Origin: Minwuiaceae bacterium
GTDB taxonomy: Bacteria > Pseudomonadota > Alphaproteobacteria > Minwuiales > Minwuiaceae
DNA length: 64,000 bases
Reading direction: 5' to 3'
Assembly: GCA_028278525.1 (NCBI GenBank)
Contig: JANQEE010000032.1
Location: 1 to 64,000 of the forward strand
A program made the translations under genes and the position numbers. This document shows positions 12,416 through 18,492 of the stretch, one piece after another (the stretch's first letter is position 1; each line of letters begins with the position of its first letter). The notes beneath the pieces were generated by a model. The model searched no databases and was not told the origin of the DNA. It was given only the letters and a program-made list of their open reading frames with translations.

Positions 12416-14050
12416 CTATCGCGCCTCCGGTCGCCACGCGGCGGCGAGGCGCTGTGCCTCGCCAATCTGCGATTCCTTCAGCCTTCTTGAGGCATTGATC
12501 AGATAGGCGGCCGCTTCCTGGTGGCCCTGGCCGGCGGCGAGTATGAGCCACATAGAGGCTATTACATAAGTGTGGGTATGCAGGGTTTCTTGAGCGTTGT
12601 CTTGCCAATAGCGCTCGTCGAAGTCGTACTGCTTCAAGAGGAAATGGTCCCTAGGCGCAATGTCGTAAAGCCCTACGTTGCCACCCGTGGCATCGAAGAT
12701 TTCACCGCTCATGATGAAAAGGCCTAACTCGAACTGGGACTCTGCGTCGCCGAGATTTGCGGCGCGCCGGTACCATTCGATGGCGGTCGACCTGTCTTCG
12801 GTGACTCCGCTGCCGTGCAGATAAAGCTTCGCGAGATGACGTTGTGCCGCGGCTACATCCTTTGCAGCCAGGTCGCGCCAAATGGGTAATGCTTCATCGT
12901 ACTTTTGGGAAAGTTGGGCCTCCATCCCTCGTTCGAACGCACCCGCATGCGGATCGTTGCGTTGCCGCAATTCGTCCGCATATTTCCGATTGCTTTGCCG
13001 TCGAGCCTGCTGCGCCTTTTCGACCCAATAGATGAACTTGTCCATATTCATCTCGACACCCTGTCCGCCCAAGTAGGCGTCGGCGGCTTTGTGCATGGCG
13101 GTAATATGGCCTTGTGTGGCCGCCGCCAGATACCAGTTGAAGGCCTCCTGGAAATTCTGTTCGACGCCGACACCGTTCATGTACATAAGACCCAGGTAGT
13201 ACTGGGCATCCGGATTGCTTTGCTGTGCCAACCGCACGACGTGGTGTGCCGCTGCCGATCGGTCGTTTCGGAGATAAGCGGCGATACCCTGGATCAGATC
13301 CGGCTCTCCCGCAGCCGCCGATTTCTTGAAGCCCATTTCATCGAGTGCGGCCTGCGCGTCCGGGTCGCCGAGATCCGCTGCCTTGCTGATCCAACGGAGC
13401 GCGATTGTCTGGTTCAACGGGACGCCGTGACCAAGGGCGTAGAGCGATCCAAGATGGCTTGCGGCCCGCGCGTGATCTTGTTCCGCCGCCATACGGTACC
13501 ATTTGGCCGCTTCGGCGTGGTTGGCCGGGATCGATTTACCTTCATAGTACATGACGCCGATCTGAAAGATCGCATCGAGGTTTCTCTTTGAGGCCGCCTT
13601 GCGGTACCACTGCATGGCTTCGTCGTAGCTCTGGTCGAAACCACGTCCGTCATAATACATGTGGCCGATCCGCAATTCCGCGAAGCCGTCGTCGTCAACC
13701 ATTGCTTTCTTGTACCAATCGAAGGCGGCGGCGTAGTCGATCGGAACACCCCGTCCGAGTTCATAGGCAAGGGCGATTTGGACGTATGCGGCCTCAACCC
13801 CTTGGTTGGCCGCCTTCATTAGCCACCGAAATGCTTCCTTGTAATCCTGAAGCGGCTCGTCCGCGAAGGTGAGGGTGAGGCCGAGGGCGAACTGCGCAGC
13901 GACATCGCCTTGTTGCGCCAACGGCAACAGTTCGCGATAGGCCGCGTCGAAATCCCCGCGATTGAAGGCGTCGGCTCCTTCGTCGTAGCCGGCCCAGGCC
14001 GGTTGGGCGACTGCCAAGAACAATAGAATTGCGCCCAATCTCATCTGCAT
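12416..14050 (-). CDS. Exported Sel1-repeat (SLR/TPR-like) protein
   Basis: A 544-residue protein. Residues 1-20 form a signal peptide (MQMRLGAILLFLAVAQPAWA, cleavage near AWA). The mature part begins YDEGADAFNRGDFDAAYRELLPL, a TPR-like unit, followed by about ten Sel1 repeats of roughly 36 residues (pattern AxxxLGxxYxxGxGVxxDxxEAxxWYxKAAxQG). Sel1 proteins are solenoid scaffolds for protein-protein contacts, often at the envelope. GGGAGGG 5 bases upstream fixes the ATG at 14050. It lies just downstream of the giant homologue on the same strand (67 bases), so the two may be co-transcribed. A binding partner cannot be inferred. Confidence 0.9.
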   Translation of the reverse strand: MQMRLGAILLFLAVAQPAWAGYDEGADAFNRGDFDAAYRELLPLAQQGDVAAQFALGLTLTFADEPLQDYKEAFRWLMKAANQGVEAAYVQIALAYELGRGVPIDYAAAFDWYKKAMVDDDGFAELRIGHMYYDGRGFDQSYDEAMQWYRKAASKRNLDAIFQIGVMYYEGKSIPANHAEAAKWYRMAAEQDHARAASHLGSLYALGHGVPLNQTIALRWISKAADLGDPDAQAALDEMGFKKSAAAGEPDLIQGIAAYLRNDRSAAAHHVVRLAQQSNPDAQYYLGLMYMNGVGVEQNFQEAFNWYLAAATQGHITAMHKAADAYLGGQGVEMNMDKFIYWVEKAQQARRQSNRKYADELRQRNDPHAGAFERGMEAQLSQKYDEALPIWRDLAAKDVAAAQRHLAKLYLHGSGVTEDRSTAIEWYRRAANLGDAESQFELGLFIMSGEIFDATGGNVGLYDIAPRDHFLLKQYDFDERYWQDNAQETLHTHTYVIASMWLILAAGQGHQEAAAYLINASRRLKESQIGEAQRLAAAWRPEAR

Positions 14051-14117
14051 TGAAACCCTCCCTGGTGAAGCGCCATCCTGGATGGCGCTTCCAAGCACGT
14101 TCGGTCAGTCGGATTCT

Positions 14118-17100
14118 CTAATCCGTATTTCCGCTGCCGCCGGTCAAGCTCGTCAGTTCCTCAAGCTTTTCCGCGGCTTCTTCCACGCCATTTACGGCTG
14201 CGATGCGATACCACGAGATCGCGGCCTCTCGATCCTTTGGCAATCCGACGCCGTCGAGATAGCGCTCGGCCAGGGCGAAAGCACTTGTGCCGTGGCCCTG
14301 TTCCGCCGCCTTGCGATACCAGATCAATGCGGTTTCAGTGTCTTGTTCGATGCCCTCCTGTCCATGTTCATGAATGTAGCCATAGGTGTACATCGCCTCG
14401 ACATGATCCTGCGAGGCTGCTTCGGACAACAGTTCGATTGCTCGGCCGCGGTCCTTTGGAACGTAGTCGCCGTTCCAAAGCATGACGCCGAGCTCGAATT
14501 GCGCATTCACGTTTCCTTGGTCGGCTGACTTCTCGTACCACTGCGCCGCGACCTTGGCGTCCTGCGGGACGCCAAACCCGTCCTCATACATTGTCCCGAG
14601 CCTATATTGAGCGACCGCGTCGCCCTGGTCGGCGGCCAAGCGGAACAGTCGGGCTGCTTCCGCATCGTCCTGTGCAACGCCTTCGCCGTTGTAGTACATC
14701 AATCCGAGTCTGTTCTGGGCGGTCGAAAGGCCAGACGAAGCAGCCTTTCGGTACCAGGCGGCGGCCTCCGCCAAATCGGCGGGCACGCCCGTGCCGTTCT
14801 CATACATAATGCCCAGGTAATAGGCGGATAGGGCGTCGCCCTCGTCGGCGCGCGCAGACCAGTGACGATAGGCCAGGTCGAAGTCGCCGCGTTCGTAGGC
14901 GGCTTGCGCCTCCTGGTCGGAAATAGCCGCCACGTTGTCGTTGGATGAACTGTTCGTCGGGCCGCCAAGTTCGCGGAGACGCACGGCCGCCTGTTCGTGG
15001 CCTTGCTCCGCAGCTTTGCGGTACCATATCAGCGCGGTTTCGAGATTCTTTTCGGTGCTCTGGCCCTCCTCTTGTATTTGTCCGTAGGCGTACATTGCCT
15101 CGAGGTGACCCTGCTCTGCCGCCTTCGACAGCAAATCGATCGCTCTATCCCGGTCTTCCGGAAGCTCGTCGCCTTTCCAAAGCGAGAAGCCGAGCTTGAA
15201 CTGCGCATCTGAGTTTCCATGGTGGGTTGCCTGTTCATACCAGTGGGCCGCTTCCTCGGCGTCTCTTGCGACACCGACGCCATCCTCGTACATCGTCGCG
15301 AGCCTGAACTGGGCAACGGCATCGCCTTGCTCGGCGGCCAAACGGTACAACCTGACGGCTTCCGATTTGTCTTGCTCGACGCCCTCGCCCCGGTAGTACA
15401 TCAGGCCGAGTCTGTTCTGGGCGATCGAAAGACCGGATGAAGCGGCCTTTCGGTACCACTTGGTTGCCTCCGCCAAATCGGCGGGCACGCCCTCGCCCCT
15501 CTCATACATGATGCCCAGATAATGGGCGGACAGGGCGTCGCCTTTGTCGGCCAATGGGCGCAAAATGCGAAGCGCTGTTGCGTAGTCGTGTTTGAGGTAA
15601 GCGACGACCGCGTCAACGTGCGTGGCTGTCGTTGCGTCGTCTGTCGATCGCTCCGCTGCCTTGTCCTTTTTCGCCTCGCCCAATTTGCGCAGGCGCTCGG
15701 CCGCCTCTTCGTGTCCCTGGGCGGCAGCCTTGGCGTACCATTTCCTCGCTTCGTCCAGGTCCCTTGCCACGCCAATGCTGCCCAGCTCGTAGACCAGGCC
15801 AAGATGCGACTGTGCCTCTGCAAGGCCCTGTTCGGCCGCCCTGCGCAAAAAGCGTTGCCCTTCGGCATGGTCGATTTCGCCTGCAACCCCGGTTATGAGT
15901 GCGCCACCCACAACGTACTGCGCCTCCGCGTTGCCGTTCTCGGCTGCCCTGCGGTACCACCGAAGTCCCAGAAAGTAGTTCTGAGTGACGCCATTGCCGA
16001 AGTAGTAGCGCTTTCCCAAAGCTGCTTGCGCGTCTACCAGCCCCTGTTCCGCCGATTTTGTGAACCACTTGATTGCCGTTTCGGCATTCGGCGCGACACC
16101 AATACCTTCCTCGTACATGGCGCCGAGCAGAAACTGGGCATAGGCGCCTCCCAATTCGGCGGACTCGCGAATTAGCAGGTACCCTTGTCGCTTGTTCTGT
16201 TCGATGCCTTCTCCAGTGGCATAGGCTTCGCCCAATGCGGTCATCGCGTCGACGTCACCCGCTTTCGCCATCGGCACCCATCGTTTCAGGGCTGTGGCGT
16301 AATCGCCGATAGCCCAGGCGTCCAATGCCTCTTGTTCGGACGGGAGGCCCGCGACGTCCGGCGTGGAACCGGTATCCCCGTTCGCTTGTTCGTTTTTCGG
16401 GAAGGCGCGCAGGCCGTCGTCGTATTCGGCCTCTATGCTGAGCGTGCGTCGCAGCTCCCCTAGCAGTTCAACCGCCCTTTCTTGGCCCTGGGCGGCCGCT
16501 CTCTCATACCATTGCTCAGCAGCCTGCCAATCGATGTCGACACCTTCACCGGCTTCGTAAAGGCTGCCCATCAGAAGTTGCGCTCTCGGTTCGCCCTGCT
16601 CCGCCGACTTCAGCAGCCACTGAGCGGCGGTGGCGTAGTCCACTTCCAGGCCGATCCCTTCGACATACATCACGCCGAGATGATACTGCCCCTCGGCGTT
16701 GCCCTGCTCGGCCGCCAGCCGAGCCATGTTCACGGCCGCTTCGTAGTCCCGGTCGACACCGATGCCGTGATAGTACGCGAGTGTCATCTTAACCTGCGCT
16801 TCGGCATGGCCTTGGTCGGCGGCCTTACGAAACCAGGCGACTGCCGCGACCGAGTCGGCTTCGACGCCGTCGCCATCGGCATACATGAGGCCGAGATAAA
16901 ACTGCGCCACCGCGCTTCCCTGATCCGCCGCGCGCGAAAAGTGTGTAGCCGCTTTCGAAAAGTTCTGCTCAGTGCCGAGTCCTTCGTAATAGAAGGTGCC
17001 CAGCGCTTCGTCGGCCTCTCGGGCGCCTTCGTCGGCATATTGCAGCCAGTATTGAAAGACCGTAGCGTAATCGCCGCGCTTGAGAGCCGCATCGGCCTCC

Positions 17101-17555
17101 CCGCCGGTGATTGTCGGGCCGCCAAGCGCTTGTAACCGTTCGGCCGCCTTTTCGTTCCCCTGGGCGGCGGCTTCGGCGTACCATCGCCTGGCTTCATTCA
17201 TGTCCTTTGCGAAACCGTCGCCGCCAAACTCATAGAGCGTCGCGAGCGCTGCCTGCGCCTTTTCGTGGCCTTGCTCGGCTGCCAGCCGGAGCAGTCGATG
17301 CGCCTCCCGCTCATCCGCCTCGACGCCTTCGCCGATCGTCAGCATATAGCCCGCATTGTATTGCGACCGTGCGTCTCCCCGTTCCGCTGCGATCCGCCAC
17401 CAGCGCAGGGCCTTTACATAGTCCTGCTCGACGAATTCACCTTCGTAGTAGTACTCGGCCAACTTCGTCTGGGCTTCCAAATAGCCCTGGTCAGCCGATT
17501 TCGTATACCAATCAATCGCCGCTGCGGCGTCCGGCGCAACCGCTCTGCCGCCCAT
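14118..17555 (-). CDS. Giant Sel1-repeat protein, C-terminal part after a frameshift
   Basis: This 1,145-residue open frame has no signal peptide and begins in the middle of a Sel1 unit (MGGRAVAPDAAAAIDWY). It is the continuation, in the +1 frame, of the gene ending at 17557; the two frames are separated by TTTAATATG. It contains about 25 Sel1 repeats grouped in larger modules. Each module opens with a TPR-like unit containing GDYATA or a variant: near residues 152, 405, 646 and 881. The modules at 646-866 and 881-1100 are near copies (offset 234). The ATG has no Shine-Dalgarno site; reinitiation one base after the stop is possible. See the finding on the frameshift. Confidence 0.85.
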   Translation of the reverse strand: MGGRAVAPDAAAAIDWYTKSADQGYLEAQTKLAEYYYEGEFVEQDYVKALRWWRIAAERGDARSQYNAGYMLTIGEGVEADEREAHRLLRLAAEQGHEKAQAALATLYEFGGDGFAKDMNEARRWYAEAAAQGNEKAAERLQALGGPTITGGEADAALKRGDYATVFQYWLQYADEGAREADEALGTFYYEGLGTEQNFSKAATHFSRAADQGSAVAQFYLGLMYADGDGVEADSVAAVAWFRKAADQGHAEAQVKMTLAYYHGIGVDRDYEAAVNMARLAAEQGNAEGQYHLGVMYVEGIGLEVDYATAAQWLLKSAEQGEPRAQLLMGSLYEAGEGVDIDWQAAEQWYERAAAQGQERAVELLGELRRTLSIEAEYDDGLRAFPKNEQANGDTGSTPDVAGLPSEQEALDAWAIGDYATALKRWVPMAKAGDVDAMTALGEAYATGEGIEQNKRQGYLLIRESAELGGAYAQFLLGAMYEEGIGVAPNAETAIKWFTKSAEQGLVDAQAALGKRYYFGNGVTQNYFLGLRWYRRAAENGNAEAQYVVGGALITGVAGEIDHAEGQRFLRRAAEQGLAEAQSHLGLVYELGSIGVARDLDEARKWYAKAAAQGHEEAAERLRKLGEAKKDKAAERSTDDATTATHVDAVVAYLKHDYATALRILRPLADKGDALSAHYLGIMYERGEGVPADLAEATKWYRKAASSGLSIAQNRLGLMYYRGEGVEQDKSEAVRLYRLAAEQGDAVAQFRLATMYEDGVGVARDAEEAAHWYEQATHHGNSDAQFKLGFSLWKGDELPEDRDRAIDLLSKAAEQGHLEAMYAYGQIQEEGQSTEKNLETALIWYRKAAEQGHEQAAVRLRELGGPTNSSSNDNVAAISDQEAQAAYERGDFDLAYRHWSARADEGDALSAYYLGIMYENGTGVPADLAEAAAWYRKAASSGLSTAQNRLGLMYYNGEGVAQDDAEAARLFRLAADQGDAVAQYRLGTMYEDGFGVPQDAKVAAQWYEKSADQGNVNAQFELGVMLWNGDYVPKDRGRAIELLSEAASQDHVEAMYTYGYIHEHGQEGIEQDTETALIWYRKAAEQGHGTSAFALAERYLDGVGLPKDREAAISWYRIAAVNGVEEAAEKLEELTSLTGGSGNTD

Positions 17556-17556
17556 A

Positions 17557-18492
17557 TTAAAGGGAGCCGAGCATAAGCTGCGCTCCGGCGTTTCCGAGTT
17601 CTGCCGCTTCGCGGATCAGCAGATATGAAAGCCTCAGGTCCTTTTCGACACCTTCGCCGAACAAATACATCAGGCCCAAGGCAACCATCGAGTCGGTATC
17701 GCGCGCTTTGGCCAACGGCAGCCACCGTTGCAACGCGGTCGCGTAGTCTCCCCGCCCGTGAGCCTCCCATGCCTCTTCGTCGGAGATGGCCGCTGCTGCG
17801 GTCTTAGTCGCAGAGTCGGCGCCGCTTTCCGCGAAAGCGCGCAATCCGGCATCGTAATCGGCTCCAATTGTCCGGGCGGATCGGAGCTCCTTGAGCGTCT
17901 GCGTGGCGGCTTCGTGATCCTGCGCGGCTGCTTTCTCAAACCATTTTTCCGCCTTGTCCCAGTCCAAATAGGGACCGTTGACGTCGTAGTGGATAAGCGC
18001 CAGGAGGTATTGTCCGGTGGCATTGCCGCGTTCGGCCGCGAGTTGCGACCAGTGGATGGCAACCTGGGGGTCCTGCTCGACGCCATCCCCGAAGTAGTAC
18101 TTGAACGCCAATTGTGTTTGCGCTACGGCATGGTTTTGCTCCGCAGCTTTGCGATACCATCTGATTGATTCTGCGGCCGATTTCTCGACGCCTGCGCCCT
18201 TCGAGTACATGGCGCCAAGGTAGTACTGGGCTCTGGCCAGACCTTTTTCAGCGGCTCGCCGGAACAGAGCGGCAGCTTCCGCGTAGTCCTGTTTAACCCC
18301 CTGTCCTTCGTAGTAGAGCGCGCCCAATAAGAACTCGGCTTCGGTGTGGCCTTGTTCGACAAGGGGGCGAAGCTCGCGCAGGGCCGTCTCGTAGTCGCCG
18401 CGATCGACGGCGGCGATGCCTTCGTCGTAGCCGGCCCAGGCCGGTTGGGCGAGTGTGAGCATGAGCGCGAGCGCGCCGAGACGAAGCCGCAT
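17557..18492 (-). CDS. Giant Sel1-repeat protein, N-terminal exported part
   Basis: A 311-residue frame starting at the ATG at 18492 (GGGAGG 7 bases upstream), with a signal peptide MRLRLGALALMLTLAQPAWA. The mature protein begins YDEGIAAVDRGDYETALREL, then five Sel1 units, a linker (YDAGLRAFAES), a second TPR-like start (WEAHGRGDYATALQRW) and two more units, ending at TAA inside a Sel1 repeat (LGSL-stop). The reading continues in the +1 frame for 1,145 more codons, so the intact protein would be about 1,457 residues. The signal peptide and first 30 mature residues are close to those of the 544-residue homologue downstream. Confidence 0.88.
   Translation of the reverse strand: MRLRLGALALMLTLAQPAWAGYDEGIAAVDRGDYETALRELRPLVEQGHTEAEFLLGALYYEGQGVKQDYAEAAALFRRAAEKGLARAQYYLGAMYSKGAGVEKSAAESIRWYRKAAEQNHAVAQTQLAFKYYFGDGVEQDPQVAIHWSQLAAERGNATGQYLLALIHYDVNGPYLDWDKAEKWFEKAAAQDHEAATQTLKELRSARTIGADYDAGLRAFAESGADSATKTAAAAISDEEAWEAHGRGDYATALQRWLPLAKARDTDSMVALGLMYLFGEGVEKDLRLSYLLIREAAELGNAGAQLMLGSL

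Follow-up and report, generated by a model that had tools for sequence, protein, structure and literature searches.

Among the closest described counterparts of the protein considered here are single-module Sel1 proteins. HcpC of Helicobacter pylori (1ouv) is a single solenoid that carries cysteines in its repeats, bridging cysteines in each repeat being the mark of the cysteine-rich Hcp family. RgsF of Sinorhizobium meliloti is a periplasmic protein made of one TPR and six Sel1 repeats, and is part of a protein-interaction network (PMC7327166). As for how repeat proteins lengthen, a survey of 24 proteomes, in which long-spaced internal similarity revealed block duplication, found that they usually do so by copying several repeats together (Bjorklund et al., 2006, PMC1553488). 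Growth by blocks of repeats is thus already well known and no new mechanism is at issue here. Sel1 is not named among the cases of that survey (PMC1553488); in the protein described below, what was duplicated is an entire capped module. A search of the literature on Sel1 duplication returned no paper with this architecture.

The window, i.e., the whole stretch of DNA that was analysed, covers positions 1 to 64,000 of contig JANQEE010000032.1 from a Minwuiaceae bacterium of the Alphaproteobacteria (assembly GCA_028278525.1). On its minus strand, the span 14118-18492 is made of two open frames lying in different reading frames: the first (18492-17557, 311 aa) starts with a probable signal peptide, and the second (17555-14118, 1145 aa) is without one. 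A first-pass annotation of this DNA had taken 14118-18492 as a single gene for a giant Sel1 protein, though it spoke of a reconstructed protein. The span proved not to be a single open frame, as module B contains a +1 frame break that divides it into 311 aa and 1145 aa. This break is the main point that the annotation overlooked. In the following, the giant designates the joined protein, in which the two translations are linked by an X and the DNA bases are unaltered. Its features are, in order of translation:

18433..18492, minus strand: MRLRLGALALMLTLAQPAWA, the giant's predicted Sec signal peptide, recognized from the sequence itself and near-identical to that of the neighbouring gene
17809..18432, minus strand: module A, a TPR-like leader (GDY), four Sel1 units and a cap, with the linker ADYDAGLRAF
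17097..17808, minus strand: module B, a leader and five Sel1 units, split by the frame break
17553..17559, minus strand: frame break, with a stop codon TAA (17557-17559), one base, then the ATG (17553-17555), with which the 1145-aa frame starts in +1 relative to the frame upstream
16362..17096, minus strand: module A', a leader and five Sel1 units, with the linker EAEYDDGLRAF
15633..16361, minus strand: module B', a leader and five Sel1 units
14922..15632, minus strand: module C, a leader (HDY) and five Sel1 units, also supported by the predicted fold
14121..14921, minus strand: module C', a leader (GDF) and six Sel1 units, also supported by the predicted fold and followed by the stop codon (14118-14120)

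Our preferred reading, to which we give a probability of about 0.78, is that of an exported Sel1 scaffold that grew by block-wise tandem duplication and whose frame is broken in module B. PF08238 (Sel1) is the only strong Pfam family in both frames, with scores of 129 bits in the N-terminal frame and 675.6 bits in the C-terminal one for a cut-off of 30.7; both carry tandem 36-residue repeats above this cut-off and belong to the Sel1-like repeat family. The Pfam model counts 4 units in the N-terminal frame and 22 in the C-terminal one, and a local model finds 29-30 in the whole giant. A leader model recognizes exactly six TPR-like leaders, at residues 23, 239, 464, 720, 960, and 1193, each opening a module. 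The earlier proposal that every super-module starts with a GDY or GDF unit is true for five of these six leaders, module C having HDY instead. The layout of RgsF (signal peptide, TPR-like leader, and about six Sel1 repeats), compared here by description only, is the same as that of each giant module; RgsF has one such module, however, and the giant six in a row together with a broken frame, so that the giant resembles RgsF repeated and not RgsF itself.

That a second level of organization exists above the 36-residue repeat, as the first-pass annotation had proposed, is clear from an ungapped self-comparison of the joined protein, in which long off-diagonals were counted apart from the 36- and 72-residue periods. 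Three were found: at offset 234 for C/C' (residues 949-1144, 64% identity), at offset 481 for B/B' (residues 223-457, 52% identity), and at offset 441 for A/A' (residues 24-206, 42% identity), with a background of about 35-44% identity between non-sister modules. The self-alignment is therefore not one of 36-residue periodicity alone, the outcome that had been named as contrary to the proposal. The motifs cited in its favour are located as claimed, both EARRWYAEAAAQG/EARKWYAKAAAQG and GADYDAGLRAF/EAEYDDGLRAF being offset by 481 residues. The offset of about 481 residues given for A-B versus A'-B' is right for B/B' and for the linker, but as far as residue 206 the A/A' pair runs at 441, owing to the additional Sel1 unit in A'; after this stretch, the linker alignment is back at 481.

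Module pairing and unit order give the same picture. The reciprocal-best pairs are A-A' (46.7% identity), B-B' (54.3%), and C-C' (66.5%), and the tree of the modules groups C with C' (100/100), B with B' (99/99), and A with A' (77/88). When the Sel1 units within one module were shuffled into every possible order, the observed arrangement was reached by 2 of 720 orders for C-C' (0.28%), by 1 of 120 for B-B' (0.83%, the single best order), and by 6 of 120 for A-A' (5%). Tandem duplication of whole blocks of about 480 and 234 residues, as initially suggested, is thus strongly supported for B/B' and C/C', and moderately for A/A'. Tandem block duplications giving (A-B)(A'-B') and C-C' are the best reading of the self-alignment and the tree taken together. 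Since A+A' is only moderately supported (77/88, and 5% in the order test), a single duplication of an (A-B) block is less sure than the duplications of B/B' and C/C'.

The nested duplication is not only real, but also old. Synonymous divergence (dS) is 1.2 for C-C', 1.6 for B-B', and 1.7 for A-A', i.e., near saturation, with dN/dS values of 0.20, 0.24, and 0.25, respectively; the copies of each pair are old and both have been kept under long purifying selection. The description of C and C' as near copies at offset 234 was correct as to the offset, but with dS values of 1.2-1.7 the term is overstated: these are old copies, whose DNA is 70% identical (dS about 1.2). Of note, codon identity is uneven along this pair. 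In a patch at its start (residues 974-1033; 15393-15572 versus 14691-14870), 33 of 44 codons are identical, compared to 29 of 67 in the part that follows, which is near the 40% expected from codon usage. The patch is compatible with later gene conversion, although the numbers are small.

Whether duplication alone accounts for six modules is a separate question, and the giant could instead have arisen when several distinct one-module Sel1 genes fused. Each of its modules is indeed laid out in full like a stand-alone Sel1 protein (leader, repeats, and cap), and the linker motif ADYDAGLRAF resembles AGYDEGIAAV, the mature start of such proteins. In a wider tree, furthermore, C/C' group (93/86) with a one-module protein from a member of the same bacterial family, leaving A/A' and B/B' unplaced; because C/C' pair with the protein of another family member and not with A/B, the giant may combine differently derived modules. 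A single clade for the six modules is nonetheless not rejected, their monophyly being neither supported nor rejected (AU p = 0.33), and the sister pairs B/B' and C/C' require internal or tandem duplication anyway. We consider such a fusion rather unlikely. Under block-wise tandem duplication, the ancestor would have been a complete single-module Sel1 protein, with a TPR-like leader, about five Sel1 repeats, and a capping helix. The A-B pair would then have been duplicated as a unit to give A'-B' (the order of events being deduced), and C duplicated separately to give C', with later gain or loss of single Sel1 units leaving A with one fewer and C' with one more. The giant is in this way a clear bacterial case of growth at two levels, 36-residue repeats first and whole capped modules next, and would be a useful one for studying the gain of length and valency by exported Sel1 scaffolds.

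An AlphaFold2 model of C-C', obtained from a 13-row alignment, is all helical, with a mean pLDDT of 91 and a pTM of 0.55; the pLDDT drops below 50 in the linker (residues 225-232). The model thus predicts two confident solenoid bodies without fixed relative orientation, separated by a disordered linker. The predicted C-C' fold is an alpha-alpha solenoid as in HcpC. Taken singly, a modelled module matches HcpC (1ouv) with a TM-score of 0.82 and 6ork of Oxalobacter with 0.88, both scores being normalized by target, so that one whole protein of this kind corresponds to one predicted module of the giant; HcpC is a single solenoid, whereas the giant has six modules in tandem. It also differs from the cysteine-rich Hcp family, as cysteine is absent from the giant's sequence and its modules accordingly lack the bridging residues. 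The best matches in both sequence and fold, the long Sel1 proteins 6ok3 (Oxalobacter) and c5321 (4bwr, E. coli), extend over about 500 residues, but matches spanning both modules reach a TM-score of only about 0.44, consistent with a different relative orientation of the two halves. Rigid solenoids on flexible linkers fit these models. In an intact form of the giant, each module would fold as a rigid alpha-solenoid of the size of HcpC, and flexible linkers would join the six into "beads on a string", a multivalent protein-binding scaffold of the periplasm or exterior. Export and this scaffold function are what we infer; the N-terminus MRLRLGALALMLTLAQPAWA is plausible by eye as a Sec signal peptide and is shared with the neighbouring gene. 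The genes around the giant encode TauD, alcohol dehydrogenase, GNAT, MarR, HlyD, and MFS proteins, and point to no functional context or partner for it.

Because of the break, the signal peptide, module A, and the first part of B lie in one frame and everything after them in another, so that no single frame encodes the full-length protein. Its base context is CCCTTTAATATGGG, in which there is no long homopolymer. The alignment of B with B' is gap-free across the break, the residue expected at this position is the conserved Sel1 tyrosine, GC3 is 0.70 on either side, and the 1145 codons downstream remain open. For these reasons, the break reads as a very recent indel or as a sequence error; with the downstream frame still open, it must be very recent if it is real at all. 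The most likely cause is a recent mutation with loss of function, or else an error in the sequence.

A real inactivating mutation, which we put a little below an even chance, would make the locus a young pseudogene, or one from which only a secreted fragment (A and the start of B) is made. The assembly, as given, contains the break, and the Sec route would be closed to the large part, whose frame lacks a signal peptide; the 4.4 kb are, however, free of any second damaging change. A sequencing or assembly error, in which case the cell has an intact gene of about 1457 codons, is given almost the same probability, somewhat short of an even chance. The long open downstream frame with normal GC3, the gap-free passage from B to B' through the break, and the tyrosine expected there all speak for an error, but the break site is not a long homopolymer and the inspected neighbouring genes in the window look intact. 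Should the mutation be real, the +1 break would cut the signal peptide, A, and the start of B off the remainder, and the full-length protein may be absent from this strain.

The sequence at the break also invites a comparison with recoding sites. A CUU codon followed by a stop is the form of the +1 shift site in the bacterial release factor 2 gene, and the giant shares with it a shift-prone leucine codon right before the in-frame stop (CTT TAA), where a slip would go in the required +1 direction; the ATG lying one base after the stop additionally offers stop-restart coupling at TAATATG. Unlike the release factor 2 site, that of the giant shows, by eye, no Shine-Dalgarno-like stimulator just upstream, nor is any such stretch seen close upstream of the ATG. 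The flanking RNA folds are ordinary (z-scores of -1.6 and +1.0), a conserved tyrosine is expected at the very site, and no relative with the same site was found, all of which makes a programmed shift or a restart very improbable. Even less credence is given to the fuller version, in which a functional CTT TAA T ATG break would let one locus yield both a short exported module and a very long form, the latter by way of a +1 shift or of restart; if true, the length of a modular binding scaffold would here be under switchable control.

Sel1 proteins are common across the class, with matches in 334 of the 385 genomes. In the sample of relatives, the giant's genus is represented by its own genome alone. 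Searches that included the class genomes returned no ortholog of the giant, no syntenic locus was found in nine genomes of the family when the genes for TauD and an NAD(P)-binding protein that flank the giant were used as anchors, and plasmid records held only ordinary Sel1 proteins with less than 60% identity to it. One apparent relative from a contig scan, L031, was discarded, as its match turned out to be a composite of separate short Sel1 genes. Smaller multi-module Sel1 proteins can be recognized by sequence in other lineages of the sample (G317 and G263). The 1478-aa frame of G317 (locus L096) has, like the giant, a predicted signal peptide and leader-Sel1 modules in tandem (offset 221, 69% identity), but only two of them, with a long Pro/Ala-rich tail behind; in the wider tree the two group together (100/99), which indicates a duplication independent from that of the giant. 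This tail (G317:C147) is very long, rich in Pro, Ala, and Glu, and has its own repeat of about 106 residues. In G263, a 1285-aa frame has several internal leader junctions. It belongs to a cluster (L103, G263:C12:9000-20000) of several long Sel1 frames (1285, 516, 404, and 367 aa), all lying on the same strand, in which leader junctions occur internally. Proteins of family f68 have single internal junctions.

With strict cut-offs applied to 190 genomes of the class and 398 of the phylum, a full leader junction is detected only in that of the giant. Calibration with a model lacking the G317 row showed that these cut-offs miss true cases. The idea that leader junctions are unique to the giant's genome was in fact rejected, since a model built solely from the giant recovers full-span junctions of 25-73 bits, partly below the strict cut-offs, in G317, G263, the neighbouring gene, and f68. 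The five junctions of the giant are the most among the genomes sampled, and because true cases escape the strict cut-offs, only this can be claimed for them.

Other long Sel1 proteins are organized differently. Those of loci L052, L054, and L108 have the 36-residue period only. By eye, a serine-protease-like stretch lies upstream of the Sel1 array in L108 (G256:C67), and in L052 (G024:C86) a serine-protease-like and a probable peptidoglycan-binding stretch lie downstream of it, in each case within one frame. A 2035-aa Sel1 frame in L053 (G013:C60) has an off-diagonal at 514 residues (66% over 233 aa) and no leader was found in it, which points to a block duplication of a different kind from that of the giant.

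Downstream of the giant lies the gene with which it shares its 5' end:

12416..14050, minus strand: secreted Sel1 protein of 544 aa, the giant's neighbour, which has its signal peptide and leader in common with the giant
18419..18452, minus strand: 34-bp stretch of the giant identical to 13977-14010 of the neighbour, covering the end of the signal peptide and the mature start

That the two genes share the signal peptide and first unit had been noted before, and the 34 bp bear this out: they are the longest exact DNA match in the whole 6-kb region, and the probability that all codons of AQPAWAGYDEG agree by chance, given codon usage, is about 3e-4. The common origin also proposed for the two genes is supported for the 5' end; beyond the leader they are 34% similar, no more than to other Sel1 proteins. 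These comparisons support a common 5' end or a conversion tract between the two genes, and the 34-bp identity has the appearance of a gene-conversion tract or of a recent exchange of 5' ends. The neighbour itself has one weak internal module junction (residues 332-435). Between the stop codon of the giant and the ribosome-binding site of the neighbour, a perfect hairpin (14067-14091, stem of 11-12 bp, z-score -3.1) without a T run is possibly a terminator-like or translation-controlling element.
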